A stretch of DNA of 45,203 bases from an uncultured Pseudomonadota bacterium (GCA_902771095.1 CACXVH010000009.1:1-45203); one strand, 5' to 3'. Positions 25,466 to 44,087 are shown, numbered from the stretch's first letter. Notes: generated by a model not told the origin, from the letters alone. Numbers and translations: made by a program.

Positions 25466-27241
25466 ATGACAGCTAATGAATTGCGTAGATTGTATATAGA
25501 TTTTTTTATAAAACGTGGTCACAAAGAAATTCCATCGGCATCGTTGATACCAGAAAACGACCCATCTGTTTTGTTTACTACTGCTGGGATGCATCCATTG
25601 GTTCCTTATTTAATGGGTGAATCTCATCCACTGGGACAACGTTTGGTTAGTTGTCAAAAATGTTTGCGTACAGGCGATATTGACGAAGTAGGTGATGCTA
25701 CGCATTTAACTTTTTTTGAAATGTTGGGTAATTGGTCGTTGAATGATTATTTTAAAAAAGAATCTATTGGATTTTCGCATGAATTTTTGACCCAGGTTTT
25801 AAAAATACCGCAAGAAAAAATAGCGGTGACTTGTTTTGCTGGTGATGAATCTGCGCCACGGGATACAGAATCTGCCAAGATATGGCAAGATTTGGGTTAT
25901 CCAAAAGAACGCATATTCTTTTATGGTAAAAAGGAAAATTGGTGGGGACCTGCAGGAACTACTGGACCTTGTGGACCAGATACAGAAATATTTTATATTC
26001 ACGATAAACCAGATTGTGGCCCGAATTGTGGTCCTGCGTGCGGTTGCGGCAAATATGTTGAAATCTGGAATAATGTGTTTATGCAATTTAACAAAGACAA
26101 AGACGGCAATTATGTCCCGCTTGGACGCCATAATGTTGATACTGGATTGGGGTTTGAACGTGCCTTTTGTTTTGTGAACGGTGTATCAAGTGTTTATGAT
26201 ACAGAATTATTCAAACCTATTATTGATAAAATAAGTGAATTAACGAACACAAAATACGAACCAAACAATTACAAGGCATATCGTATCATTGCGGACCATT
26301 TGCGTGCTTCTACATTTATATTGGGGGACGATCGTGGAATTGCGCCATCAAATGTAGACCAGGGCTATATCTTGCGTCGCTTGATTCGTCGTGCCTATCG
26401 TTATTTGACGCAGACGAACGCACCGGCAAACGCGATGGCAAAGATAGCAAAAGTTGTTATTGAAAAATACAAAGACATATACCCAGAATTGGAACGCAAT
26501 CAAGAATTTGTAATAAATTCATTAAATCGCGAAGAAGAAATATTTTCACGTACACTTGAATCTGGTATGAAAATCGCGAAAAAGTATCTTGAAAATGTGG
26601 CAAATAATCAACTTGCTGCGGCGGATGCGTTCAGATTATATGATACCTTTGGTTTTCCGCTTGAATTCACCCAGGAACTGGCAACTGAATATGGTGTATC
26701 TGTGGATGCCGATGGTTTCCATAAACTTTATGCGGAACACCAAGAAAAATCTCGTGCCGGGGCAGAACAAAAATTCAAAGGTGGACTTTCAGATGATTCA
26801 ATCGAAACAAGACGGTTGCATACTGCGGCTCATTTAATGTTGGCTGCATTGCGCCGTGTTTTAGGTGATTCTGTTATGCAAAAGGGGTCTAATATCACAC
26901 CAGAACGTTTGCGTTTTGATGTGTCATTTAACAGACGCATTGAACCAGCAGAATTGGCAGAGGTAGAAAAAATAGTGAACGATGCAATTGCGGCGGCTGT
27001 ACCCGTGGAATGTACGGAAATGCCATTGGATGAAGCACGTGCATCTGGTGCTATTGGTGTTTTTGGTGACAAGTATGGCGAAGTGGTAAAAGTTTACAAG
27101 ATGGGCAAGTGGTCAAATGAAATCTGTGGTGGACCACATGCCGCTAATACTGGTGAATTGGGCAGATTCAAAATATTAAAAGAAGAATCTAGTTCTGCCG
27201 GGGTCCGAAGAATCAAGGCCGTATTGGTCCAAGATAAATAA
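25466..27241 (+). CDS. alaS: Alanyl-tRNA synthetase, compact form
   Basis: The 591-residue enzyme charges tRNA-Ala. Its class II catalytic domain is complete (ELRRLYIDFFIKRGHKEIPSASLIPENDPSVLFTTAGM, TFFEMLGNWSLNDYFKKE, VDTGLGFERAF, IIADHLRASTF, GYILRRLIRRA). It carries a Cys-rich insert (PDCGPNCGPACGCGKY). The editing domain keeps its zinc ligands HTAAH (His452, His456) and CGGPH (Cys554, His558). Compared with the E. coli enzyme (875 residues) about 110 residues between catalytic and editing domains and the whole C-terminal C-Ala/DHHA1 domain are absent. The N-terminus resembles the short AlaRS I associate with candidate-phyla bacteria. A GAGGAAC site precedes the ATG. Confidence 0.9.
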   Translation: MTANELRRLYIDFFIKRGHKEIPSASLIPENDPSVLFTTAGMHPLVPYLMGESHPLGQRLVSCQKCLRTGDIDEVGDATHLTFFEMLGNWSLNDYFKKESIGFSHEFLTQVLKIPQEKIAVTCFAGDESAPRDTESAKIWQDLGYPKERIFFYGKKENWWGPAGTTGPCGPDTEIFYIHDKPDCGPNCGPACGCGKYVEIWNNVFMQFNKDKDGNYVPLGRHNVDTGLGFERAFCFVNGVSSVYDTELFKPIIDKISELTNTKYEPNNYKAYRIIADHLRASTFILGDDRGIAPSNVDQGYILRRLIRRAYRYLTQTNAPANAMAKIAKVVIEKYKDIYPELERNQEFVINSLNREEEIFSRTLESGMKIAKKYLENVANNQLAAADAFRLYDTFGFPLEFTQELATEYGVSVDADGFHKLYAEHQEKSRAGAEQKFKGGLSDDSIETRRLHTAAHLMLAALRRVLGDSVMQKGSNITPERLRFDVSFNRRIEPAELAEVEKIVNDAIAAAVPVECTEMPLDEARASGAIGVFGDKYGEVVKVYKMGKWSNEICGGPHAANTGELGRFKILKEESSSAGVRRIKAVLVQDK

Positions 27242-27648: not shown

Positions 27649-28659
27649 TTAATTCTGTATACCAGATATACCTTTTTTGCATAATTCGGCATAGATAGGT
27701 TTGTCTAACCCATATGCTTTGATCAGTGCACTGGGCTTTTGGTTGCACCAGAGATCCCGATAGGAAACAATGCTGTTTTTAACCGTTTTAATCAGCCCAC
27801 TGGGTAGTTCGGCACGTCCTATGCACGAAGACAGATAAACGAAACATTCGTCGTTGTCAGCCAGATTTTCACAGGCTAAAATACGGGCATAGACATTAAG
27901 GGTCAAATCTGCCTTACTGGCATCTTTGGTCCAAGGGCTGCCACCTCCAATCGGACAAGCGGTAGAATAAAAGTCACAGGCCAATTTTCGCCCTGTAATG
28001 CCGCAGTCTGCGATGGAACTGTGGTATGTATATCGTCCGGTGCCGTTTACTATTATGCGTTCCGGTCTTTCACCCAATACTGATACAATCAAATCCGTCA
28101 GGTCTTCATCCTGTAACATAGGGATTGCTACAATAGCGGTTTCTATCCGGTCATCATTAAGGGTAATTTGTGTCTTGATGTCCAGCCCCAGATTCTCAGA
28201 TCTGCGTGCCGCTGTGTACAGGGCATCGTTTAGCTTTCGTGCAAGGAATAATTCCCTGTTTATCTTACCTTCGCCTTTGCAGGCATATCCAACAAACACG
28301 CCTTGATCGCCCCAGCCATCTTGATCAACACCTTGGGCAATATCGGACGATTGTACACCGATCATATTGATAACTTTGATTTGCGCTGGGTCAATTGCAT
28401 ACTTGCCCCATATAGTCGCATACCGTTCATCGTATCCTATTTCGGATAGGGCATTCTTAACATGGGTAATCAAATCGCCTAGTAGGGCAGAGGTAGTAAC
28501 TTCGCCACCAAGGACAACGGTGTTATCTTTGATCATAACTTCAACGGCATATCTGGTATGTGGATCTTGTTCGATTAACCTATCAAGTATGAAACTTGAA
28601 ATGTAATCAGCAATTTTATCTGGGTGTCCCAATGACACTGCTTCAGCTGTTCTTTGCAT
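27649..28659 (-). CDS. metK: S-adenosylmethionine synthetase, short divergent form
   Basis: The 336-residue enzyme makes S-adenosylmethionine from methionine and ATP. It keeps AVSLGHPDKIADYIS (His12, Asp14), GGEVTTSA, GDQGVFVGYA, NGTGRYTYHSSIADCGITGRK and a glycine/lysine loop GGGSPWTKDASKADL, where the usual form is GGGAFSGKDPSKVDRS. It is about 48 residues shorter than the E. coli enzyme (384) and starts directly at the substrate-binding block. Its base composition looks less AT-rich than its neighbours, which may point to transfer. The ATG is preceded by AAAGGAG, which can be hidden in a hairpin (see the leader entry). Whether another metK exists in the genome cannot be seen. Confidence 0.85.
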   Translation of the reverse strand: MQRTAEAVSLGHPDKIADYISSFILDRLIEQDPHTRYAVEVMIKDNTVVLGGEVTTSALLGDLITHVKNALSEIGYDERYATIWGKYAIDPAQIKVINMIGVQSSDIAQGVDQDGWGDQGVFVGYACKGEGKINRELFLARKLNDALYTAARRSENLGLDIKTQITLNDDRIETAIVAIPMLQDEDLTDLIVSVLGERPERIIVNGTGRYTYHSSIADCGITGRKLACDFYSTACPIGGGSPWTKDASKADLTLNVYARILACENLADNDECFVYLSSCIGRAELPSGLIKTVKNSIVSYRDLWCNQKPSALIKAYGLDKPIYAELCKKGISGIQN

Positions 28660-30013: not shown

Positions 30014-30121
30014 GGTTTGTATGGTGTTTTTGAATGCACCTTAGGGGGCTTTTGATGTCGGTATTGAATTTTGTCTTCACTGTGGTACAATATGTTTAAT
30101 AAAAAAACAAAGGGCAAAAAT

Positions 30122-30748
30122 ATGACCAAAATATATCAAAAAATTTACACAGATGAATCTGGGACAAAGCCTAAAGAAATCGAATGGACTATTGAAGAAT
30201 TGCAAAATAGTGTTGTAAATAGTGAATCTATAAATAATTACTATTGTGCCGACAGAAACAAAGGAGCTTGGTTGTTTACAGATAAGATCAATTTTAAATT
30301 AGAGAATGAACAGTGGAGAAAATGCGATAAGATACAGTATTATGGTTATGAGATATATGCCAGCAATCGTGGTCGTATAAAAGTTAGAAAAGATGGCTGT
30401 GAGTGTATTTGTGCACTTTGTGAAGAGATAACCCCAGGGAAAGATATAAATTCTGCCTTGTTCAAATTTTTAATAGACAATAACGAGAAACATATAGGAT
30501 GGTTGAAAGCTAAAATTTCGGGGAATAAACGTTGTCTGGGACCATACGTTTATCAAATGGTCGCGGATGCTTGGTTCCCAGATTATGCCTACGGAGAAAC
30601 AGATGGTCAAATACATCATATAACAAACGATGGATATGATAATCGCCCTGAAAATTTAATTATATTGAAAGAGAACGAGCATAAGAAGATCCAGCATTAT
30701 GGACTGTCAGATCCTAGATATTATCCTGGCAAATATGATAAAAAATAA
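30122..30748 (+). CDS. NUMOD4-HNH endonuclease
   Basis: The 208-residue protein has a NUMOD4-like motif in the middle (CDKIQYYGYEIYASNRGRIKVRK) and a C-terminal HNH nuclease motif starting at about residue 161 (DGQIHHITNDGYDN, then RPENLIILKENEHKKIQH). This resembles phage and intron-type homing endonucleases that cut double-stranded DNA. The start at 30122 is chosen because the longer frame from 30071 would begin inside a promoter-like TACAAT region. It is convergent with the WYL regulator gene. It could be a free-standing homing endonuclease or part of a defence locus. Confidence 0.75.
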   Translation: MTKIYQKIYTDESGTKPKEIEWTIEELQNSVVNSESINNYYCADRNKGAWLFTDKINFKLENEQWRKCDKIQYYGYEIYASNRGRIKVRKDGCECICALCEEITPGKDINSALFKFLIDNNEKHIGWLKAKISGNKRCLGPYVYQMVADAWFPDYAYGETDGQIHHITNDGYDNRPENLIILKENEHKKIQHYGLSDPRYYPGKYDKK

Positions 30749-30771: not shown

Positions 30772-31827
30772 TTAGTTTTTCATAGAATCCAGACATTTGT
30801 TCAACAATTTCTTGTATTCAATCAGTAATTCTTTTGGTTTAACAGGGATTATATCACCACCCCATTGCGTTAAATATATACATATAGCACGCAAACCACC
30901 AGTACGCATTTTTACTGTCATTGTGCCATCTGGGTTATTTATGAATTTTTGGGTTGGATGAAATTGATATTTTTTGACTATTTTGATTACTTCTGGATCT
31001 TTAATTAACCATTCTATATCATACATTGTGCCATCGTTATAGATGCCAAACATATCTTTTGCATATGATTTAAGTGAAAAACTGTTGTCTTTATTAAATC
31101 TATTACCTGTATCAACCACATTGGTAATATTTGCCATGATATAATGTCTAGGATCGGTGCAGACTTTGCCGTTTTTACAAATATAAGCAACAAGATAAAC
31201 ATTATTAGGGCCATACATAATTCCCAAAGGACAGACAGTATGTTCACGATTGTTATACATAAAGCGTATTTCATGCTGTTTACTTATTGCAGAATCTAGC
31301 AATGATTTAATATTTGGATCAAATCTTATGTCTGGGCGCGGACCAACAAAAGCAAAATCAGCATTTATCATTTGATCAATATCGTTTATCTTGCTCGCTG
31401 CTCGTTTCGGTTCTGTATGTTCGATTTTACGGTATAATCTGGTGGTAAGTTTTGCTTTCAAATTTTCCAATAATTTGTGTTCATTTAGATTATTTGCTGT
31501 TTTTTGAATGGCAAATTCCAAAGCCCGAATTTCAGTATCATCAATTGTGTCTGGAAAATCATGTAAATCTAATTTATAAGCACCAGCTTCTTCTTCCAGT
31601 TGGTCACCATATGAATCTTTGATAGAATCTAGTGTGCGTTTAACCGTTCTCTCACTTACCTTGTATTCCGCAATGTTTTTACAATCTGCAGGGGTTTTAC
31701 CCAAACGTTTATATTCAGAAGATAAAAAATTCCGAATATCTTCACGTGTCATATAATTGGCACGTAATGCGTTAATAAGGTTTAATTTTATATCGGTTTT
31801 CTTGTAATTGTTGCGCGATTCAGACAT
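30772..31827 (-). CDS. WYL-domain transcriptional regulator
   Basis: The 351-residue protein has an N-terminal winged-helix region (about 1-90: TDIKLNLINALRANYMTREDIRNFL...VSERTVKRTLDSIKD), a WYL domain in the middle (about 185-250: KQHEIRFMYNNREHTVCPLGIMYGPNNVYLVAYI) and a C-terminal WCX-like part (about 285-345). WYL proteins sense nucleic acid or nucleotide ligands and often repress defence genes. It is divergent from the AAA+ ATPase operon with a 123-base gap that holds a palindromic motif, so it probably controls that operon and itself. Confidence 0.85.
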   Translation of the reverse strand: MSESRNNYKKTDIKLNLINALRANYMTREDIRNFLSSEYKRLGKTPADCKNIAEYKVSERTVKRTLDSIKDSYGDQLEEEAGAYKLDLHDFPDTIDDTEIRALEFAIQKTANNLNEHKLLENLKAKLTTRLYRKIEHTEPKRAASKINDIDQMINADFAFVGPRPDIRFDPNIKSLLDSAISKQHEIRFMYNNREHTVCPLGIMYGPNNVYLVAYICKNGKVCTDPRHYIMANITNVVDTGNRFNKDNSFSLKSYAKDMFGIYNDGTMYDIEWLIKDPEVIKIVKKYQFHPTQKFINNPDGTMTVKMRTGGLRAICIYLTQWGGDIIPVKPKELLIEYKKLLNKCLDSMKN

Positions 31828-31890
31828 TTTTGCTTCTCCGGTTTATATACCGATATGATATCAAATATTTGTTTATAAGTAAAGAACAAT

Positions 31891-31905
31891 GGACCAATTC
31901 TGTCC
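31891..31905. promoter_or_regulatory. Candidate operator, copy 1
   Basis: GGACCAATTCTGTCC is a near-palindrome (GGAC...GTCC) between the divergent WYL regulator and AAA+ ATPase genes. A 13/15 match occurs upstream of the FtsK-like gene (36863-36877, reverse strand). It is a candidate binding site for the WYL protein. Confidence 0.45.
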
Positions 31906-31950
31906 AAAAGATTAATTATATTAAATGTAAACCAGGCAAAAGAGGCTATT

Positions 31951-34029
31951 ATGAACATAAAAGATAGACAAATTATTTTGCGTTATTTAAGAAATATGGT
32001 GAACAGCGAATATGAACCAGAAGATATGGATTTTTTTATCCGTAAAATTTCGCAATATTCTTCTGATTTATTCGGGTTTTGCTTGAGAGATGTATTAAAT
32101 GGTAACGATAAATTGACTTCTGATGATGACAAGGCTGTTTTTGTCACGAATTTATTAGACGGCAAATTATGGCGTAATGTTTTGTCATCAGAAGACGGTT
32201 TGCACCAACATGTATCAAAAATATTTGATGCTAGAAAGGATGATTATAAAGTCGATATAACTAAACCAGATTTTGATAAAAATTTTACAATGATATGTGA
32301 TACTTTTGATTTGCCAGATAATTGCAGACGTTTATTACAGTTTTTGGTTTGTATGAAAAATAACATGATGCTACGCAGATTGCTGGGGTGTTATAACGAT
32401 GATATAGATCGTGATTATTTTTTGAATGAAAATAATTCGGATTTTATAGCAACTGTATGCAAAATGCCTGCCCAAGAAATCAGGGAAGCATTTGCTCAAA
32501 ATGGACCATTGTTTGAGTCAGGTATATTAAAAAATCGTTATGGTGATAATGAATTTAATAAAACATTTTTGGGGTTATTAACTATGAACTTTAAAAGTTG
32601 TAAAGAAGTGCGTGATGTTTTGGTTGGTAGTCCTTTATCAACAATGCTAAAACGTGAAAATTTTGATTATATGTTGGATGATTTTGATAAAGTATCCGAA
32701 ATTTTAACCAACGGAATTAATACAAACAGCAAGGGTATAAATATCCTTTTGTATGGTTTGCCAGGAACAGGAAAAACAGAAATAGCAAAAACAATTTGTA
32801 ATCGTGCAGGGTTAAATTTATATACCACATCTGAAAAACAAGAAGAAAAAGATGGTAGATTATCAAATCTGGCGCAGATGCAAACCGTATTGAAAAATGA
32901 AGAAAAATCGGTCATTTTGTTTGACGAAGCAGAAGATGTGTTTTCTCTCTATCCGTTTAGTAGGCATAGCCCCAGTAAATTATATATAAATCGTATATTA
33001 GAAAACAATAAACGCCCGGTGATATGGATAACAAATAATTTGGAAGACATGGATAAAGCATATGTTCGTAGATTTTCGGTTGCGCTGGAAGTATCTAACC
33101 CAGATGAACGTGCAAAAATTAATGCCTGGAAACGTATATTTGAAAAGTACGAACTTGAAATTTCTGATGAAGATATCAAAGGATTAATAAATAAATATCA
33201 GGTTCCAATATCTATGATAGAAACGGCTGTGAAAAACGCAAAAATTGTGAACAATATTAATTTCGTCGATTATACTTTGGAACATTTAACAATGGCTATG
33301 ACTGGCAAAGTAAAGAGAAAGAAAAAATCAAACGGTGTAAAATTCAATACAAAACTGTTGAATACGGATATTGATTTAGAAAAATTAGCAAATCAAATCA
33401 ATAACAAGAAATTGAATAATTTTTCGTTATGTCTTTATGGTGCGCCCGGAACCGGAAAAACAGCTTTTTGTGAACATTTGGCGGACTTGTTAGGATTAAA
33501 TATAATAAAAAAACGCGCAAGTGATATAAATAGTAAATGGGTTGGCGAAACTGAACAAAATATTGCAAAAGCATTTCAAGAAGCCCATGCTCAAAAAGCT
33601 ATGTTAGTTTTTGATGAAGCAGACAGTTTCCTTATGGATCGAACACGTGCCGGCCATTCATGGGAAATTAGTGGTGTTAATGAAATGTTAACCCAAATGG
33701 AAGCGGCAGAATATCCGTTTGTTTGTACAACCAATTTGATGGATAATATAGATAAAGCAGCACTGCGTAGATTTTCTTTTAAGGTTAAATATGATTTCTT
33801 GAAACCAGATCAAGTGATAACCGCCTTCAAAGATTTTTTCAAACAAGATGTAACACGCGATGAAATTGTTGATTTGGTAAATCTTGCACCTGGGGATTTT
33901 GTGGTGGTAAAAAATCAAGCCGATTTACTGGATATTACTGATAAATCTGAATTATTATTCAGATTGCGCCAGGAACAACAAGTTAAAAATTGTCGTGAAC
34001 ACAAAGTAAAAATAGGATTTCATTTTTAA
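31951..34029 (+). CDS. Double AAA+ ATPase (SpoVK/Cdc48-like)
   Basis: The 692-residue protein has a helical N-terminal domain (about 1-240) and two AAA+ modules. Module 1 has Walker A GLPGTGKT (269-276) and Walker B ILFDEAED (Asp325, Glu326). Module 2 has Walker A GAPGTGKT (497-504), VGETEQNI and Walker B LVFDEAD (Asp555, Glu556). Both contain RRFS arginine-finger-like segments (YVRRFS, ALRRFSF). Such proteins form rings that remodel or unfold partners. It is the first gene of a three-gene operon with a nuclease and a DNA glycosylase; the next gene follows after 46 bases. A remodelling role on DNA or protein is inferred; the substrate is unknown. Confidence 0.82.
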   Translation: MNIKDRQIILRYLRNMVNSEYEPEDMDFFIRKISQYSSDLFGFCLRDVLNGNDKLTSDDDKAVFVTNLLDGKLWRNVLSSEDGLHQHVSKIFDARKDDYKVDITKPDFDKNFTMICDTFDLPDNCRRLLQFLVCMKNNMMLRRLLGCYNDDIDRDYFLNENNSDFIATVCKMPAQEIREAFAQNGPLFESGILKNRYGDNEFNKTFLGLLTMNFKSCKEVRDVLVGSPLSTMLKRENFDYMLDDFDKVSEILTNGINTNSKGINILLYGLPGTGKTEIAKTICNRAGLNLYTTSEKQEEKDGRLSNLAQMQTVLKNEEKSVILFDEAEDVFSLYPFSRHSPSKLYINRILENNKRPVIWITNNLEDMDKAYVRRFSVALEVSNPDERAKINAWKRIFEKYELEISDEDIKGLINKYQVPISMIETAVKNAKIVNNINFVDYTLEHLTMAMTGKVKRKKKSNGVKFNTKLLNTDIDLEKLANQINNKKLNNFSLCLYGAPGTGKTAFCEHLADLLGLNIIKKRASDINSKWVGETEQNIAKAFQEAHAQKAMLVFDEADSFLMDRTRAGHSWEISGVNEMLTQMEAAEYPFVCTTNLMDNIDKAALRRFSFKVKYDFLKPDQVITAFKDFFKQDVTRDEIVDLVNLAPGDFVVVKNQADLLDITDKSELLFRLRQEQQVKNCREHKVKIGFHF

Positions 34030-34075
34030 TCGTATTTAGGATATCATAACAATAGATTAAACAAATGGATTATAT

Positions 34076-35542
34076 ATGATAAAAATATCAAAATCAGATT
34101 ATGTACTTGGTATAAAATGTCCAAATGCAATATGGTTCAAGAAATACCGCAAAGATTTACAGCCAGAAATGAATCAGGCAGTATTAGATAATGGAACCGC
34201 GGTTGGTGAATTGGCTTGTGATAGATTCCCAGGTGGTGTTCGTATTGTCGCTAAACCATGGGAAGATACTGCAATTACACAAACTAAATCAGCAATATCA
34301 GGAAACGTGCCATTTATTTATGAAGCAACATTAAGTACTGATACAGGTGAATATTGTGCTGTGGATATTTTGCGTAACAACAATGACGGAACATGGGATA
34401 TACTAGAAGTCAAATCAACCACAGAACCCCACGATTATCATTACATAGATGCATCTTTTCAACGTTATGTATTTACCAAATGCGGAATTAATGTTCGTAA
34501 TTGTTTTATCATGACGTTAAATAAAGAATATGTTCGTCATGGGAATTTAGATTTGGAACAATTATTCGCCTTGCATGATGTAACAGAAGATTTACAAGAT
34601 ATTGAAACCGTACAGCATGAAATCGAAAGAATAAGAGCTGTTTTGGGCGGCACAGAGCTTGGTATCGCGATATCCAAAGTAAAATGTAACAAATTCTATG
34701 AATGTCCGTATAAACATCATTGTTGGAAAGATGTACCACAATATTCTGTGTTTGATGCTTTTAAAGGCGCAATGGCAGATAAAGTATATTCTGAATATGG
34801 TGCAGATTTAAGCAATGTTCCTGCTGGTGTTCGCGCTAATCAATCACATCCTGGTGATATAGAAGCATTTTTGAAAAATACAGATGTGATAAATAAAGAT
34901 ATTTTACGTGATTTTACCAATGGGTTGCGCTGGCCACTATATTTTTTGGATTATGAATCAATAATGTCTGTTGTCCCAATGTTTGATAATTCCAGACCGT
35001 ATCAACAGATTTGTTTCCAGTTTTCATTGCATGTGCAGCGTGAACCAGGTGCAGAATTGGAACACTATGAGTATCTTCATAATGAGTCTGGTATAGACCC
35101 CAGACCTGGATTGATAAAAAAGTTAATTGAAATCATAGGCAATGCTGGATCTGTAATTGTTTATAACCAAATATTTGAACAAGGTCGTAATACAGAAATG
35201 GCGCGTGATTTTCCAGAATACGCAGAACAATTAAATGCGATAAATGCCCGTATGGTTGATTTGTTGATACCTTTTCGTGCACGTGGATTGTATCGTCCGT
35301 GTCAGAATGGGAGTGCCTCGATCAAACAAACATTACCAGCATTTGTGCCAGAAATGTCTTATGAAAATCTTGGAATACATAATGGAACCGAGGCTAGCGA
35401 TCAGTTTATGGCATTCATGACAGGAAAACAAACGGCAGAGCAGACCAAAGAAATGATGGCCAATCTGCACGAATACTGTGGACAAGACACAATGGCAATG
35501 GTAAGATTGTTAGAAGTGATACAGAAAGTTATAAAGGAATAA
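34076..35542 (+). CDS. DUF2779 protein: Fe-S PD-(D/E)XK nuclease plus DEDD-type exonuclease-like domain
   Basis: The 488-residue protein has two nuclease-like halves. The first (about 1-225) has a PD-(D/E)XK core (Asp97, then Glu111-Val-Lys113 in EVKSTT) and four cysteines (Cys15 and Cys204/Cys210/Cys216 in CNKFYECPYKHHC) placed as in Cas4/AddB-type Fe-S nucleases. The second (about 280-488) starts with YFLDYES (Asp292, Glu294), continues with VYNQIFEQGRNTEMA and ends with HEYCGQDTMAMVRLL, as expected for the RNase H-like domain of DUF2779. DNA or RNA end processing is inferred. It is the second gene of the AAA+ operon. Confidence 0.8.
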   Translation: MIKISKSDYVLGIKCPNAIWFKKYRKDLQPEMNQAVLDNGTAVGELACDRFPGGVRIVAKPWEDTAITQTKSAISGNVPFIYEATLSTDTGEYCAVDILRNNNDGTWDILEVKSTTEPHDYHYIDASFQRYVFTKCGINVRNCFIMTLNKEYVRHGNLDLEQLFALHDVTEDLQDIETVQHEIERIRAVLGGTELGIAISKVKCNKFYECPYKHHCWKDVPQYSVFDAFKGAMADKVYSEYGADLSNVPAGVRANQSHPGDIEAFLKNTDVINKDILRDFTNGLRWPLYFLDYESIMSVVPMFDNSRPYQQICFQFSLHVQREPGAELEHYEYLHNESGIDPRPGLIKKLIEIIGNAGSVIVYNQIFEQGRNTEMARDFPEYAEQLNAINARMVDLLIPFRARGLYRPCQNGSASIKQTLPAFVPEMSYENLGIHNGTEASDQFMAFMTGKQTAEQTKEMMANLHEYCGQDTMAMVRLLEVIQKVIKE

Positions 35543-35545
35543 AAT

Positions 35546-36061
35546 ATGAATATAAAAACCTTGTTGAAAAAAACAATTTTGTCTCGTCATAAAATAAAAC
35601 CGTTTAATATTGATGCTGCAAAAGTTGTAATATTGGGAACATTTCCAGGCGAAGAATCATTAAAGTGCAATAAATATTATTCAAACCCCACAAACAAATT
35701 TTGGGAACTTTTAGGAATAAAATTTGGCGATTTTGAAGCATTAAAAGACAAAGGTATCGGTTTGTGGGATGTAATAAAATATTGCGACAGAGACGATAAT
35801 GGTAAAAATACGAGCGCTGATAAACATATAAAAAACGAGGTTTATAACGACCTTTTTAAATTAAATGGCAAGAATATACTTTTTAATGGTAAGAAAGCGT
35901 ATAATTACTACATAAAAGCAAAGAAAAATCCTAAATATGCAAATTGGCCAGAAGTTGACGAAGATAAAATATTAAAATCAAGTAGTGCGGCTCTTTCTAT
36001 GAAATTTGAAGAAAAACAAAAAGATTGGAATAAAAAACTGAAAAAATTGGGGATTAAATAA
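35546..36061 (+). CDS. Hypoxanthine/uracil-DNA glycosylase-like protein (UDG family 6 type)
   Basis: The 171-residue protein has the UDG-superfamily motif 1 in the form VILGTFPGEESLKCNKYYSNPTNKFW, close to the ILGS-PG--SL----YY--P-N-FW pattern of family 6 (HDG), and a late SSSAAL segment in the motif 2 position (LPS-SPA in relatives). Family 6 enzymes excise hypoxanthine from DNA. It follows the DUF2779 gene after 3 bases and ends at a terminator, so it is the third gene of the AAA+ operon. In this context it may act on modified or deaminated foreign DNA; that is inference. Confidence 0.78.
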   Translation: MNIKTLLKKTILSRHKIKPFNIDAAKVVILGTFPGEESLKCNKYYSNPTNKFWELLGIKFGDFEALKDKGIGLWDVIKYCDRDDNGKNTSADKHIKNEVYNDLFKLNGKNILFNGKKAYNYYIKAKKNPKYANWPEVDEDKILKSSSAALSMKFEEKQKDWNKKLKKLGIK

Positions 36062-36075
36062 ATCTCCATTTTTTT
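36049..36075 (+). terminator. Terminator of the AAA+ operon
   Basis: GGGGATT (36049-36055) pairs with AATCTCC (36061-36067, one G-U pair) and is followed by seven T. It overlaps the last codons of the glycosylase gene and the stop of the convergent FtsK-like gene. Confidence 0.55.
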
Positions 36076-36823
36076 ATTCTTCAATATATGGTGTGTTTAT
36101 AAGAACAGGTATTCTTCCGGCATTGCTGAACAAGGCTTCATTATGTGTAGTTAGTTTTTCTGCACCGGGTTCGCCTAGTATTTTGATCGCTTCTCGTTTG
36201 TATGCAACCCAAAAAGCCAATCTGACTGGTAAATACGCTTTCAATAAATTGCTGATTTTATCAAAATTATAAGATGTGATGATTAAATGTATGCCTGTGG
36301 CACGAGATTTTTCCGCTAGATTTATGATATTTTTTTCTACTTTTTTACCAAAGAAACTAATCATCATTGATAATTCGTCAATCAATATAATATGAAAAGG
36401 CAGTTCGTTGTCAGAATGTTGTTGGTTATATTCAATAATATTTTTTACACCATTGTTCGCAAACAAAGTGTATCTATTGTCCATTTCTTCAACGATATTT
36501 TGTAAAGATTGCATACATTCATCGACATCATCCACAATTGTGGTCAGGTTCGAATAATTTTCAAAATCTATACCTTTGGGATTTAATACAGTGATTTCAC
36601 AATCTTCGGTTGAATACATGTTCCTAATTGTATGAATCACAGATTTCAAAAACATCGTTTTTCCTGTCCTGGCACCACCACCAATCAATAAATGTGGCAT
36701 TTTGTGTAAATCTTGTATAAACGGTTTATCGTTTATATCTGTGCCTAAAATTATGGGTAAGGTAGCTTTGGATTTTTTATATTCTTGGCTTTGTAATAAT
36801 TCTGATAACGGTGTGTTTTTCAT
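36074..36823 (-). CDS. Stand-alone FtsK/SpoIIIE-type DNA translocase ATPase domain
   Basis: The 249-residue protein corresponds to only the motor domain of FtsK: LPIILGTDINDKPFIQDLHKMPHLLIGGGARTGKTMF (Walker A), TVLNPKGIDFENY, ILIDELSMMISF (Walker B), AEKSRATGIHLIITS, and a late GEPGAEKLTTHNEALF. No membrane segments and no gamma domain are present. The ATG at 36823 fits the GGAG site; further upstream ATGs lie at 36829 and 36835. A copy of the motif found upstream of the AAA+ operon precedes it, so it is probably co-regulated. It could translocate DNA for the nuclease module. Confidence 0.82.
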   Translation of the reverse strand: MKNTPLSELLQSQEYKKSKATLPIILGTDINDKPFIQDLHKMPHLLIGGGARTGKTMFLKSVIHTIRNMYSTEDCEITVLNPKGIDFENYSNLTTIVDDVDECMQSLQNIVEEMDNRYTLFANNGVKNIIEYNQQHSDNELPFHIILIDELSMMISFFGKKVEKNIINLAEKSRATGIHLIITSYNFDKISNLLKAYLPVRLAFWVAYKREAIKILGEPGAEKLTTHNEALFSNAGRIPVLINTPYIEE

Positions 36824-36862
36824 ATACATCTCCATGTTTGTTCATATTATAAAACACACATG

Positions 36863-36877
36863 TGACAAAATTGGTCC
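36863..36877. promoter_or_regulatory. Candidate operator, copy 2
   Basis: The reverse strand reads GGACCAATTTTGTCA, matching the motif at 31891-31905 in 13 of 15 positions. It lies 40 bases upstream of the FtsK-like start codon. Confidence 0.45.
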
Positions 36878-37860: not shown

Positions 37861-38481
37861 TTATTTCTTTATACTTTCGACAAGTTTGTAAATTCCGGCA
37901 AAAGGCGAAATGTCGTATTCTTGTGAATATATTGCAGATTGTTGCCAGTTTTTTGCACGTTGTAATGCGTAACTGCATCCTTTCTCCATCTGTTTCATAT
38001 CAAAATAAGGTTTGCATGCTTTTTCGTTGGATCTGGTTTTATGTATGTAAGAAGGCATTTTCTCATGAAGCAAACTTTGGCACTCTTTCTTTGTATTTGG
38101 AATGTTTTGTACGTTGCAGCATAGCAGTCCCCATGTTTCTATTGTTGGGGCATTAAATGCAATATTTATGGGTGTACATCCTCGTTTTAAGTTTTTATTA
38201 AAATCATCGATTTTCTTGTAAGCAACTTTGACCTTGTCGTGATCGTCGTTATCAAAAATTACCCATAATTCTGATTTTTTACCCAACCAACGATTGCGTT
38301 CAGAAAAATCTATAGCTCTCATAGCAAGAGTTTCTGGATCTGCCGATTTTTTGTAAACAAACACATACGAGCAATCATACAAATTGCATAGATTGGTTAT
38401 ATAGTTTGCTTCTGTTCCTATATCTCCTCCTTCACAAGCTAAATATATTGTTTTCTTTATTCTGGAAACATCTCTTGCCAT
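37861..38481 (-). CDS. rloB: RloB-like protein
   Basis: The 206-residue protein has the RloB pattern: TIYLACEGGDIGTEANYI, then ELWVIFDNDDHDKVKVAY and an INIAFNAPTIETWGLLCC segment. These acidic clusters suggest a Toprim-like nuclease fold. It overlaps the 3' end of the AAA15-type ATPase gene by 25 bases and has a very strong GGAGGAG ribosome binding site inside that gene, so the pair is translated together. AAA15-RloB pairs occur in restriction loci and as AbiL-type phage-exclusion systems; that function here is inference. Confidence 0.8.
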   Translation of the reverse strand: MARDVSRIKKTIYLACEGGDIGTEANYITNLCNLYDCSYVFVYKKSADPETLAMRAIDFSERNRWLGKKSELWVIFDNDDHDKVKVAYKKIDDFNKNLKRGCTPINIAFNAPTIETWGLLCCNVQNIPNTKKECQSLLHEKMPSYIHKTRSNEKACKPYFDMKQMEKGCSYALQRAKNWQQSAIYSQEYDISPFAGIYKLVESIKK

Positions 38482-39743
38482 TGCTTTTCTCCTCCAGGAA
38501 ATGGAATAGCGCCATATTTCCCATTTATGTAATCCCTTTCTAGGTTTTTATCAAAGCGAGGGTTTATATCTGTTAAAGGATATATACGACTTTCTCCGTT
38601 GCTATTTTTTTCAGTGAACCATATTTCGTCAACCCTCCAGATTTTATGAGATAACAAATATGTGTTATGTAATGCCGCAATTATTTGTCCTTTTCCGTTA
38701 TCGTTCAATAACATATTTAAAATTGCCTCTGTAATCAATGGATGCAAAAGGCTATCTAATTCATCTAAGAGTAAAATTTTTTCAAGTTGTTTTTGCATAA
38801 ACAAACTCAGAGACAAATGGATTAGTTTTTGCGTTCCGGCAGACTCATAAGCTAGTTCAAACGGTATATCACAACCAGAATGTTTAATCATAAGTTGCTT
38901 GCACTTTATTTGGTTGTTTTCATTACTAAAAACAAATAATCGATCAGTTGTTACTTGTGCTATATGTTCTCCTGGATTCAAGGTAATAACAGGAGAGTTA
39001 ATAGAAAGTGCTGGAGTTGGCACGTCTTCAAACATAACATTTTCTATCCCAATATCTGCATTATGAAGCAACTTTACTAAGAATGTTCGGAATGTCTCTG
39101 TTTGAAACGCTTTATAAAACTGTTCGCCTACAGTCACAGATTTTTCATTTATGTATTCAATACTATGAAAAAAATCTAATGCCGCTTTAATATGTTCATA
39201 TCCGTCGATTTTATTGGGAATTACACCATAATACGCCTCTAAAGAAGAAATCCACGGCACAAAGGGTTGAGCAGTTTTGTCCTTGTTATACCAAGAAGAA
39301 GACAGTGTTTTTCCGTATTTTATATTTAATTGGTTGCGTTCAAATAACAGTTCCTCTTTGTCTCCCTTTTGAAAACAAAAACGTTCTGTGTGAATTTGGC
39401 CCGCATAAACAGATAATGTGTATGAATATTTTGTGCCATTTTTCAAAAAATGTACTTCAAACACAGGATTGGCGGACTGATCTTTATTAAAAAAATTTTG
39501 AACCAATAATTGAATCGGATTTATGTTACCCAACCATGGTGCTTTGATTATATCCGCAAAGATTTTTAATGCTTGTAATATGTTTGTTTTTCCTGAAGCA
39601 TTGGCTCCATAAATAACAGCTCCAGACAACAAATTATCGCTAATGATGTGCTCTGGATGTTGTTGAATTTTTGATTTTTCCATGGAAATTGTGGCTTTGT
39701 CTTTGAATGATGTATACCTAGAAATAGAAAAATCTATCAACAT
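38457..39743 (-). CDS. rloA: AAA15/OLD-like ATPase (RloA/AbiLi-type)
   Basis: The 428-residue ABC-class ATPase has Walker A GANASGKT (46-53) and Walker B LLLDELD (Asp327, Glu328) followed by SLLHPL, with the signature-like SAGTQKLIHLS before it. The D-loop and H-loop region (IAALHNTYLL) follows. RloA-type ATPases act with RloB as a presumed phage-sensing and nuclease pair. The ATG at 39743 is preceded by AAAAGGAG. It is divergent from the DUF2188-GIY-YIG operon with a 383-base gap. Confidence 0.82.
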   Translation of the reverse strand: MLIDFSISRYTSFKDKATISMEKSKIQQHPEHIISDNLLSGAVIYGANASGKTNILQALKIFADIIKAPWLGNINPIQLLVQNFFNKDQSANPVFEVHFLKNGTKYSYTLSVYAGQIHTERFCFQKGDKEELLFERNQLNIKYGKTLSSSWYNKDKTAQPFVPWISSLEAYYGVIPNKIDGYEHIKAALDFFHSIEYINEKSVTVGEQFYKAFQTETFRTFLVKLLHNADIGIENVMFEDVPTPALSINSPVITLNPGEHIAQVTTDRLFVFSNENNQIKCKQLMIKHSGCDIPFELAYESAGTQKLIHLSLSLFMQKQLEKILLLDELDSLLHPLITEAILNMLLNDNGKGQIIAALHNTYLLSHKIWRVDEIWFTEKNSNGESRIYPLTDINPRFDKNLERDYINGKYGAIPFPGGEKQWQEMFPE

Positions 39744-40879: not shown

Positions 40880-43800
40880 CTATATTTCTTTCATGATTCT
40901 GTCTGTTTCCTGTAATACGGTTATGATATTTTCATAATGCATTACTTCTTCTGGGGTTAATGTACGGCCTTTGCGGTCTTTCAGGTACTTTTGTGCTGGT
41001 TGATAACCACCAATATAGAATTCCCATGCCGTTTGTGGCACATTGTCAAAATACTGGGTACCATTGATATAAACACGTCCATTATCATACGTTGGTTTAT
41101 CAACAACGCAATCTCCACCAATCGGGAAATGGACGTCAGATTGTGGAACGTCGGTCATTAAATGTAATTTACGTAGTTGCTCCCCGTATTTACGATAATG
41201 TTCGAATTTATCTTTGTTTTCTGGGTACGGTATGCGTGGAAAATCAATCTTTAAAAACTCACGATATTTTTCACGATACGATGGACTGTGCAAAACACCA
41301 TAGATATAATCAAATATTGCTTCTGGTGTTGTTTGTCCAATATTTCTTTCGATTTCACGCACAATTTGCGGGTTCAAATTTGGGTTTTTGTCGTCATTGG
41401 TATATATATATAATGGAAAAACATAAGTTTGTGCACCAATGAAGTGTTTGTCCGATATGTGTGAAGCAACACACCAGCCAATATTATTTGTGGTTCTCGG
41501 CAAACACAATGCGTAATTCGTTTTCAGCATATGTTGCATCACAGTAAATCTAGGATATGCAACCAAACTTTTTTTATTTGTATAATATGTATAACGCAAG
41601 TCAAACGGTCTATAAGATATCTTTACCAATTTTCTTATATCGTAATCAACGCTGTTTAGGTTATTTTGTACGTCTTTTAATACCCAATCTCTGCCGTCAT
41701 CACCAATATCATATTTGTTTCTTATCGTTGTTTCAGGATATTTTCTCAAATCATCTATAATTTCTTTTAGCTTTTCTTGATCAAATTGTATCGCGAGCAA
41801 ATCTTTCTGTGTTTCAATACCCGTCGTATTAGATAAGAATAAATCGCAAATATAAAAGCCTTTATTATAAGATGTCTTTATGGAAAAATCTTTTGGTGTA
41901 AAGAAATAATATGGCTCAACCGGTTTTAAGATTTTTAACTCTGAATTTGTTAAATTATGATCAGTTAAGAAATCATATTTTTTATCACGTTTTCCATACA
42001 CATCACGGTAATATACGTCTGCTAATTTTTTGCTTTTGCTATTTTTTATGAATATGTTTATAGAAACCCCAGTTCTTATATCAAATACATTTTCATCTTT
42101 GGTGCCGTCGGGTGCCGTTTCATGTGCGCGCGAATTTCCGTGAAGATTAACAATATAAATTTTATCAAACGACTCCATTAAGCTTTTACGCATTTGTCGG
42201 TGTGTTATTCCATCTAGAAAACTATTGTTAGAAATGTAAGCCAAAATACCACTGCCGTTTTTTTCAATATAATGTTGCCCAAGCGCAATAAATTTTATGT
42301 AGTCGTCATCTAAATTGAGCTTTTTTTCGTTCAATCCGATTTTATACTTTTCTATCAATTGTCGTGCAAAATCATTCATGTTCGCACTGGATACAGAATA
42401 CGGAGGATTTCCTAACACGCACATGACAGGGACGTTTTGTTTGATGTTATTTGCTTCTTTTGCTTCGTCCGACAACCATTGCGCCGCCCAAAGTGTCTGC
42501 GTGTCTGGATCTGCTTCTTCCAATGAATTTGTTAAATAAACCCCCACACGATTGTTACTGTTCAATATGGCAGAATTACGTTTCACAGTAACCAAATTGG
42601 TATCAAATAAATTATCTTGGCGGAATATCTTGTCATTTATACGTGCATCATCCTGAATATAACCCGTTTCACGTAAAACTAAATCCAATTTCAAATGTGC
42701 CATGGTATAGCTGGACATCATAATTTCAAATCCATGCATGCGTGGCAACAGATCATTTTCAACGTAATTCGGCCAAATACCAGCATTGTTCTTAAATTTA
42801 TCATGAATATAATTCACTGTGGTTGCCAAAAACGTTCCTGTACCAGTTGCTGGATCAAGCAATTGCACACGGTGGAATTCCTTATCTTCGGCTTTGGCAT
42901 GACCTTGTAAATGGACTTTCTTTGTGATTTTTGATTTGTCTGCCAATCCATTTGGTAATTCAAAATCCGTTTTCAATATGTCGTCCATCGCACGGACTAT
43001 GTAATCAACAACTGGTTGTGGGGTATAATAAACACCACGTATTTTACGCAACTTCCTATCGTATTTGCTTAAAAACGTTTCATAGAAATGGATTATCGGG
43101 TCGGTTGTCTTGGTTTTACGTCCGAAATCTTTCAAAATATCAGCAACGTCGGTATAACTGAAAATGCTTGCCAAACTATCAACAGACCACACAATACGTT
43201 CATCTATATCATTCCCGGCAATATAATCAAACATTTTACGTAAAAATGGAACTGTCTTAGGTATCAAGGTGGCGGCTTCCTGACGGGTAAAATCATGCAT
43301 AGTTTTATCGTGCAAACGGGCAACAAACATACCATACGCAACCGTCTGAGCATAAATATCTGCAAATTCTTGTTCTGTCATTGTACGAATAAGAATTTTT
43401 CGAAATGATTCCAACTGTTCATATAATGATTTGTTTTCTGATTGTTCGGCCAGTGCACCTTTTATCACGTCTGCAATCAAACGCGCTTTACCGGCCATCA
43501 ATTCGGCCAATTTCAATGGCGATTTTATAGTTGCGGTTTTGACTGTATAAAAATCTTTTATCAAATCAATTAACGTATGATACTTTTCTGGTAATGGCGT
43601 GATTGTTTTACCATCAAAATCTGCTATTCTGATTCTGGCTGTTTCTTTACCTTCTTGGTAAAATCTAAATTCCAGGTAATCTGTGTATATTAAATTTGGC
43701 AACCCACCAAGATAACGTTCTTTTTGTTCTATTTCACGATCAAACAGATTATCAAGACGATTAACGCCAATATCTTTGGCTTCTGCAAAACCGATAACCG

Positions 43801-43993
43801 CATCGCCGGATTTAATCATAAAATCTGGCGCGCCAAATGTTCCCCTTTGTGGTTCGTTAATGGCAGTAATAGGTTTAGATGTACTTATTGATTCAAATAA
43901 TTTCTTTAATGCCGGACGATAAGAATGCTCTTTGGCAACGCCCGTTTTGAACTCTCTGTCTATATCAACCAAATATTCTGCAACGCCATACAT
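40880..43993 (-). CDS. Single-chain restriction-modification enzyme (type ISP/IIG-like)
   Basis: The 1,037-residue protein combines restriction and modification. An N-terminal PD-(D/E)XK nuclease has PDF (Asp57) and EAK (Glu71, Lys73). A helical region and YTPQPVVDYIVRAMDDIL lead into an N6-adenine methyltransferase with motif I DPATGTGTFL (Asp380) and motif IV NPPY (Asn529). A C-terminal target-recognition region follows from about residue 640 (SYRPFDLRYTYYTNK). No separate helicase block was identified with certainty. The ATG at 43993 is chosen because AGGAG lies eight bases upstream. No specificity subunit is adjacent. Confidence 0.85.
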   Translation of the reverse strand: MYGVAEYLVDIDREFKTGVAKEHSYRPALKKLFESISTSKPITAINEPQRGTFGAPDFMIKSGDAVIGFAEAKDIGVNRLDNLFDREIEQKERYLGGLPNLIYTDYLEFRFYQEGKETARIRIADFDGKTITPLPEKYHTLIDLIKDFYTVKTATIKSPLKLAELMAGKARLIADVIKGALAEQSENKSLYEQLESFRKILIRTMTEQEFADIYAQTVAYGMFVARLHDKTMHDFTRQEAATLIPKTVPFLRKMFDYIAGNDIDERIVWSVDSLASIFSYTDVADILKDFGRKTKTTDPIIHFYETFLSKYDRKLRKIRGVYYTPQPVVDYIVRAMDDILKTDFELPNGLADKSKITKKVHLQGHAKAEDKEFHRVQLLDPATGTGTFLATTVNYIHDKFKNNAGIWPNYVENDLLPRMHGFEIMMSSYTMAHLKLDLVLRETGYIQDDARINDKIFRQDNLFDTNLVTVKRNSAILNSNNRVGVYLTNSLEEADPDTQTLWAAQWLSDEAKEANNIKQNVPVMCVLGNPPYSVSSANMNDFARQLIEKYKIGLNEKKLNLDDDYIKFIALGQHYIEKNGSGILAYISNNSFLDGITHRQMRKSLMESFDKIYIVNLHGNSRAHETAPDGTKDENVFDIRTGVSINIFIKNSKSKKLADVYYRDVYGKRDKKYDFLTDHNLTNSELKILKPVEPYYFFTPKDFSIKTSYNKGFYICDLFLSNTTGIETQKDLLAIQFDQEKLKEIIDDLRKYPETTIRNKYDIGDDGRDWVLKDVQNNLNSVDYDIRKLVKISYRPFDLRYTYYTNKKSLVAYPRFTVMQHMLKTNYALCLPRTTNNIGWCVASHISDKHFIGAQTYVFPLYIYTNDDKNPNLNPQIVREIERNIGQTTPEAIFDYIYGVLHSPSYREKYREFLKIDFPRIPYPENKDKFEHYRKYGEQLRKLHLMTDVPQSDVHFPIGGDCVVDKPTYDNGRVYINGTQYFDNVPQTAWEFYIGGYQPAQKYLKDRKGRTLTPEEVMHYENIITVLQETDRIMKEI

Positions 43994-44087
43994 AACAAAA
44001 ACTCCTGTATTCATTACCTTAAGGGTAGCAGATGCCGATAAATTTATCAACAGTTATAATAACAAAGTATCATAGAGTTCTATTAGT

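Follow-up and report, generated by a model that had tools for sequence, protein, structure and literature searches.

Five genes in an Enterousia-like gut alphaproteobacterium with a small genome probably constitute, and we say so with modest confidence, a system directed against DNA of phages or mobile elements, repressed by WYL and shuffled horizontally, with both its protective role and its target presumed. A defensive role is favored because the genes are patchy in distribution and shuffled, occur on plasmids as well as in viral contigs, and are accompanied in the window by restriction-modification (RM) and Abi-type genes. Precedents are available in WYL regulators of defense systems and in UDG-superfamily defense glycosylases. 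The argument is built on the genes and their intact active-site residues, a common operator sequence, the recurrence of the module, one swap of cargo, and gene fusions, all of which are observed. The window, that is, the whole stretch of 45,203 nucleotides that was analyzed, belongs to a genome of 818 kb that is 92.5% complete.

A gene for a WYL-WCX transcription regulator (351 aa, 30772 to 31827, minus strand), which matches the Pfam WYL profile and, weakly, WCX and has an N-terminal HTH-like stretch, is divergent from that of a p97/CDC48/NVL-like tandem AAA+ ATPase (692 aa, 31951 to 34029, plus strand) with two Pfam AAA domains and a helical N-terminal region. Next come genes for a DUF2779 protein (34076 to 35542, plus strand), assigned Cas4/Exo5-like four-cysteine PD-(D/E)XK and DnaQ-like DEDD exonuclease domains on the basis of conserved residues and a model, and for a UDG-superfamily, family-6-type (hypoxanthine/deoxyinosine) DNA glycosylase (35546 to 36061, plus strand). 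Intergenic gaps of 46 bp (AAA-DUF2779) and 3 bp (DUF2779-UDG) make these three genes operon-like. A lone FtsK/SpoIIIE-type motor domain (253 aa, 36074 to 36835, minus strand), without membrane or gamma domain, is convergent to them. All five genes are intact in the window. The open reading frame map bears out a preliminary description of this locus, in which a WYL repressor-type gene faced an operon and a lone FtsK motor was convergent to it; the positions given there for the five genes, 30772 to 36823, also hold, except that the FtsK gene runs to 36835, and 36823 is its third in-frame ATG. An HNH endonuclease-like gene adjoining the WYL gene (30071 to 30748, plus strand; weak Pfam HNH_3 match, PHROG HNH) is a possible accessory of the module. 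Its relatives adjoin the WYL-AAA pair at two other loci (L022, L296) and lie upstream of the AAA gene at four (L081-L083, L086).

The regulator's WYL domain scores 22.6 bits, over the Pfam cut-off of 21.8 (PADLOC WYL, 4.8e-18), and its WCX region scores 17.2 bits, below the Pfam cut-off of 23.9; both domains exceed their cut-offs in a homologue (L308). In the AAA protein (two Pfam AAA domains, 1.3e-41), an alignment of 57 homologues shows little or no variation at the Walker A motifs (G269-T276, G497-K503), the Walker B acids (D325, E326, D555, E556), N595, and two arginine pairs, R373/R374 and R606/R607. The DUF2779 protein matches PF11074 at 1.8e-45 (154.7 bits, with a curated cut-off of 23.3), and its Cas4-like N-terminus falls just under the Pfam family cut-off (0.00021). 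Alignments of 15 and 16 sequences show as invariant or nearly so C15, C204, C210, and C216, the PD-(D/E)XK residues D97, E111, and K113, and the DEDD-type residues D292, E294, D395, and D471. An AF2 model (pLDDT 90) yields Foldseek matches to Cas4, EXO5, and DnaQ folds. The two nuclease-like folds that had been proposed for this protein are recovered with both residue sets kept, and residues and fold matches agree with the published placement of DUF2779 among 3'-5' exonucleases with a DUF83 domain, in RNase H-like family F.17 (PMC3985635).

The glycosylase matches the Pfam UDG superfamily (7.6e-11) and, as judged by sequence membership, appears to be of the family 6 type that had been suggested, because it passes NCBIfam TIGR04274 for DNA-deoxyinosine/hypoxanthine glycosylases (89.5 bits, cut-off 80). 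Other copies in the genus also exceed this cut-off, and a search of PDB sequences matched 2l3f (5e-12) and 2c2p/2c2q only. The motor domain matches FtsK_SpoIIIE (PF01580, 7.8e-27, 94.6 bits), with Walker A (GGGARTGKT) and Walker B (ILIDE) motifs in its sequence. At 253 aa, it is not the division FtsK of the cell, a long multidomain protein that is found separately as a 756-aa frame (G000:C1).

The preliminary description recognized no named defense system in this combination, and PADLOC, run on the locus, likewise matched none. Profiles from PADLOC, NCBIfam, PHROG, and Pfam identified no named system and gave partial matches only, to IetA, SspH, MAD8, and Cas4. Our literature search found no paper that combines WYL, an AAA ATPase, a nuclease, and DUF2130 in a defense-island operon. 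The CDC48-type AAA domain of IetA (PADLOC PDLC02196, 3.5e-34) matches best over the second ring of the module ATPase. However, the latter has two rings and another N-terminal region, and it scores 99.9 bits with the IetA equivalog NF042959, below the cut-off of 510. The subtilisin-like protease IetS is absent among the operon genes. Two tandem AAA domains are also found in CDC48/p97, NVL, and Rix7, which an AF2 model of the ATPase (pLDDT 86) matches in fold over residues 232-682 (p97 Z 19.6), whereas the module protein is bacterial, has its own helical N-terminal region, and is linked to nucleases.

Comparisons were also made for the other proteins. Three reports (PMC9122589, PMC9122601, PMC9122588) describe WYL regulators that sit on other phage-defense systems, and the module regulator resembles two of these, BrxR and CapW, in its HTH-WYL-WCX layout, its position adjoining a defense-like operon, and an inverted repeat between regulator and operon; this repeat is present at the divergent WYL-AAA promoter and conserved in the genus. 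Unlike BrxR and CapW, the module regulator would control scattered nuclease and motor genes and not BREX or CBASS. Brig1 and Brig3 are UDG-superfamily glycosylases and proven phage defenses (PMC11078745, PMC13160076). Their likeness to the module enzyme is at the superfamily level, with a UDG-superfamily enzyme in a defense-island setting and base excision as the proposed attack, but the module enzyme is of the family-6/TIGR04274 type, and relatives of it occur in coupling or fusion with a two-domain nuclease or with WYL. The DUF2779 protein is a member of DUF2779/UU173 (PF11074) and shares the Cas4-like plus DEDD exonuclease architecture of that family, for which the literature found gives no function; it differs in its placement within a putative WYL regulon.

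In a wide survey, at least 531 relatives of the AAA protein were confirmed, of which the best 80 were kept; 48 relatives, many of them weak, occur in viral contigs. Within 7 kb of the AAA homologue, WYL was found in 50 of 100 loci and DUF2779 in 12 of 100, the latter always co-directional, compared with one and none, respectively, of 39 control regions that come from the same genomes but are mostly contig starts, not defense islands, and so leave the island-wide background unmeasured. DUF2779 occurs in 17 of 49 AAA genomes and, by comparison of contigs and positions, within 8 kb of the AAA gene in ten of these. A Diaphorobacter plasmid carries AAA, DUF2779, and WYL in a row; on a Sphingobium plasmid, AAA is divergent from WYL and DUF2779; and on Fuscovulum and Novosphingobium plasmids, AAA and WYL are paired with AddAB-like nuclease-helicases. 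AAA-WYL pairs are also present in viral contigs. Elsewhere, direct partners of DUF2779 or AAA include PDDEXK_4, DUF2130, GmrSD, PIF1, and RecBC-like proteins, and most AAA loci outside the host genus lack UDG and FtsK. WYL-AAA is the widespread core, and DUF2779 is its commonest nuclease partner. The idea that the five families form an equal core had to be abandoned, and other nucleases (MBL-fold, DUF2130, RecBC-like, PDDEXK_4, HNH) adjoin WYL-AAA with or without DUF2779. AAA-DUF2779 pairs on Helicobacter plasmids (L019, L031) were not counted, because their ATPases are of the AAA_2/ClpB type and gave no blastp match at E 1e-3. Loci of a Kiloniellaceae type (L133, L136, L146, L150) have the tandem AAA gene in a common gene order without WYL and are perhaps a housekeeping branch.

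Among 156 genomes of the host genus, most of them metagenome assemblies in which contig ends cut some key loci, 31 carry a WYL homologue, 27 carry DUF2779, and 10 carry the glycosylase; gene calls in the fetched loci are mechanical open reading frames labeled by local profiles. Genomes with DUF2779 carry WYL more often than chance (p=4e-6), in a genus whose loci are related, so that Fisher tests overstate independence. The co-occurrence of the five families suggested earlier is substantiated insofar as their linkage recurs in other genomes; the full set is rare, being limited to the window, G177, and G226, with a remade version in G047. One G177 locus (L280) repeats the window layout, with WYL divergent, then AAA, a 644-aa DUF2779-UDG fusion, and FtsK convergent. 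G226 has all five genes on two contigs that both end inside the module, one with FtsK, UDG, and DUF2779 (L295/L320) and the other with HNH, WYL, and AAA (L296). Elsewhere, DUF2779, UDG, and FtsK run in one direction (L309, G205), a WYL-UDG fusion lies between FtsK genes (L308, G170), and UDG adjoins FtsK-like genes at three more loci (L312, L318, L319). Pfam confirms both the DUF2779-UDG and the WYL-UDG fusions. UDG follows or is fused to DUF2779 in 5 of 11 genus copies, a DUF2779 remnant in G047 included. Pfam also detects a NUDIX-UDG fusion in G177 (L310:1943-2962), adjoining a metK-like gene.

Protein identities between the window and G177 or G226 are 88 and 93% for WYL, 91 and 95% for AAA, and 87 and 90% for DUF2779, compared with only 50 and 53% for UDG, which indicates that the UDG slot holds old, different alleles. 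The module genes are under purifying selection, with dN/dS of 0.05-0.28 among diverged copies, and this low ratio, together with recurrence in other genomes and the gene fusions, places the combination beyond chance. A congener, Candidatus Enterousia merdequi (G047; loci L030, L072), matches the window at 87% through WYL and AAA to the first DUF2779 bases (30778-34094) and at 99% from the last DUF2779 bases through UDG into FtsK (35508-36167). Between these blocks, G047 has FtsK, two unknown genes, and only a remnant of DUF2779; an FtsK-containing cassette has taken the place of the DUF2779 body. The glycosylase belongs with DUF2779 and the lone FtsK. The view taken from the wide survey, that UDG and FtsK are passengers, was ruled out by the fusions and by the DUF2779-UDG and UDG-FtsK pairs across the genus.

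The main rival to defense is a DNA-damage repair regulon, in which the module enzymes would mend deaminated or broken DNA of the cell itself and WYL would sense damage as PafBC does; we regard it as possible, if on the whole unlikely. DNA repair, too, employs WYL, Cas4-like, DnaQ-like, and UDG proteins, family-6 glycosylases are themselves repair enzymes, RecBC- or AddAB-like enzymes also occur at AAA loci, and the fusion of NUDIX to UDG (L310) would suit such a role. Two reports add that the WYL regulator PafBC, which is responsive to ssDNA, drives the DNA damage response (PMC11804915) and that SiwR answers genotoxic stress (PMC10693628). However, carriage by so few of the 156 congeners is unusual for housekeeping repair, cargo is swapped within the operon, and the window copy adjoins RM and Abi-type genes.

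The regulation of the putative defense system can be approached through a palindrome, TGGAC-N7-GTCCA, situated between WYL and AAA (TGGACCAATTCTGTCCA, 31890 to 31906) and kept in divergent loci of the genus. A second, less perfect copy (GGACCAATTTTGTCA, 36863 to 36877, minus strand) lies 29 bp upstream of the FtsK start. These are the only window sites with at most one mismatch to GGACCNNTTNTGTCC, and because 0.08 would be expected, the pair is not attributable to chance. The palindrome also occupies the divergent gaps of L022, L072, L073, and L074, and one arm is varied in L075 and L061; TACGAC-type repeats are present instead in L063 and L078, whose WYL is more distant. In the first genomes tried, sites were present in 9/9 WYL-positive and 0/6 WYL-negative genomes. 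At least two sites occur in 14 of the 19 genomes with a close WYL, as split from distant ones by an E-value cut that we set, compared with 1 of the 137 others (p=5e-15); the single exception (G001) has a distant WYL.

Sites lie upstream of AAA alone, a 185-aa-DUF2130-DUF2779 operon on other contigs (L271, L275, L279), MBL-fold operons (L273, L285), HNH-DUF2779 (L025), and lone FtsK genes (L280, L062, L285), and several site-bearing contigs are without WYL. In G177, the site is 23 bp upstream of FtsK (L280), and G226 also has one at its FtsK gene (L320). Bases left unfixed by the search pattern complete the palindrome (T at -1 in 46/63 sites, C at +14 in 51/63). We read the palindrome as the operator of a scattered regulon, to which WYL presumably binds, and FtsK appears to be tied to the module by this common candidate operator rather than by the operon. 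A chance motif was ruled out by clustering, WYL dependence, and gene position; totals of a loose 14-base pattern over the genus are about those of a reversed control, and the operator claim is not built on them. Sites at L269, L288, L289, L302, and L303 were treated as off-target; they come from genomes that have no close WYL and sit in a single conserved sequence context. At one island (L285), five operator-pattern sites accompany WYL-AAA, FtsK-DUF2130, an MBL-fold gene, and genes for an HSP70-like protein and an ankyrin protein of 1288 aa.

FtsK matches were found in all 18 genomes searched. The cell's own FtsK (approximately 205 bits in a long frame) is present in every genome except G047, where the module copy alone matches. 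An extra lone FtsK over the Pfam cut-off occurs in 7/9 genomes with module genes and 0/9 without. In the FtsK-like genes beside UDG at L309, L312, L318, and L319, Walker A is degenerate and its lysine is lost, which suggests that the motor may not always be active. This loss weighs against the defense reading, as do the rarity of the full five-gene set, the lack of UDG and FtsK at most AAA loci in other genera, the repair roles of related proteins, and the operator-like sites at L269, L288, and L302.

For the defense reading, we infer a series of events in which operator binding by WYL, each biochemical step, the target, and the protection are all presumptive. WYL would bind TGGAC-N7-GTCCA and hold both the FtsK gene and the AAA-DUF2779-glycosylase operon silent until an invasion or DNA-damage signal releases repression. 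The glycosylase would then excise a non-canonical base, either a hypoxanthine-like one or one modified by a phage, creating abasic sites. Starting at such a lesion, the DUF2779 nuclease, with its Cas4/Exo5-like and DnaQ-like activities, would degrade the DNA; protein bound there might be stripped or remodeled by the p97-like AAA+ ring, and the DNA might be fed along by the lone FtsK motor. In a more specific form, which we offer tentatively, this would be a base-excision-guided DNA defense, in which the glycosylase marks the invader's DNA by excising a particular base, the coupled and in some cases fused Cas4/DnaQ-like nuclease, p97-like remodeler, and FtsK destroy it, and one WYL silences exchangeable cassettes at several places in the genome.

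If the WYL protein instead silences a toxic nuclease set whose induction destroys the cell's own DNA, the module would be an abortive-infection or suicide system. A common operator before every part suggests costly expression, and CapW is a WYL regulator associated with CBASS, a cell-killing system (PMC9122588). We nonetheless judge this improbable, since the presence of a base-excision enzyme points to a target that bears a chemical mark and not to indiscriminate cutting. Still less probable is that the genes serve an integrative element or phage satellite in its own replication or competition, and not host defense: AAA homologues do occur on phage and plasmid records (PHROG 10401), and an insertion place beside metK recurs, but a scan of the window genes identified no integrase, replication, or capsid gene adjoining the module, and the putative regulon is spread over separate contigs. 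Coincidental neighborhood with no functional link is highly improbable: defense islands do gather unrelated genes, and downstream genes differ between loci, but this is contradicted by two fusions within the set, the common operator on distant contigs, the unvarying orientation of DUF2779, and the return of the set in several genomes, and, because the control regions are not defense islands, the evidence against mere island clustering is the operator (for WYL, AAA, DUF2779, and FtsK) and the fusions (for UDG).

Should the WYL-repressed defense be correct, it would add to bacterial immunity a WYL-run regulon that extends beyond a single operon, and a natural fusion protein would join base excision and a nuclease directly. 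The operator offers a concrete handle for listing further unknown defense genes in these genomes. A testable role is also gained for the DUF2779 and tandem-AAA families, which are widespread and uncharacterized in the literature found.

The surroundings of the module in the window hold several further genes. A RloB-like gene and an AAA_21 ATPase gene (37861-39743, minus strand) form a pair with PADLOC AbiLi/AbiLii matches, an AbiL-type neighbor, and a Type IIG/ISP RM enzyme follows at 40880-44050 (minus strand; PADLOC REase_MTase_IIG, E 2.7e-292). On the other side, a metK-like gene (S-adenosylmethionine synthetase, identified by eye) lies at 27649-28659; such genes adjoin the module or its parts in L296, L309, L310, L313, and L023, and the place beside metK is probably an insertion hot spot. 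An alanyl-tRNA-synthetase-like frame at 25466-27241, also identified by eye, encodes only 591 aa and is shorter than usual.
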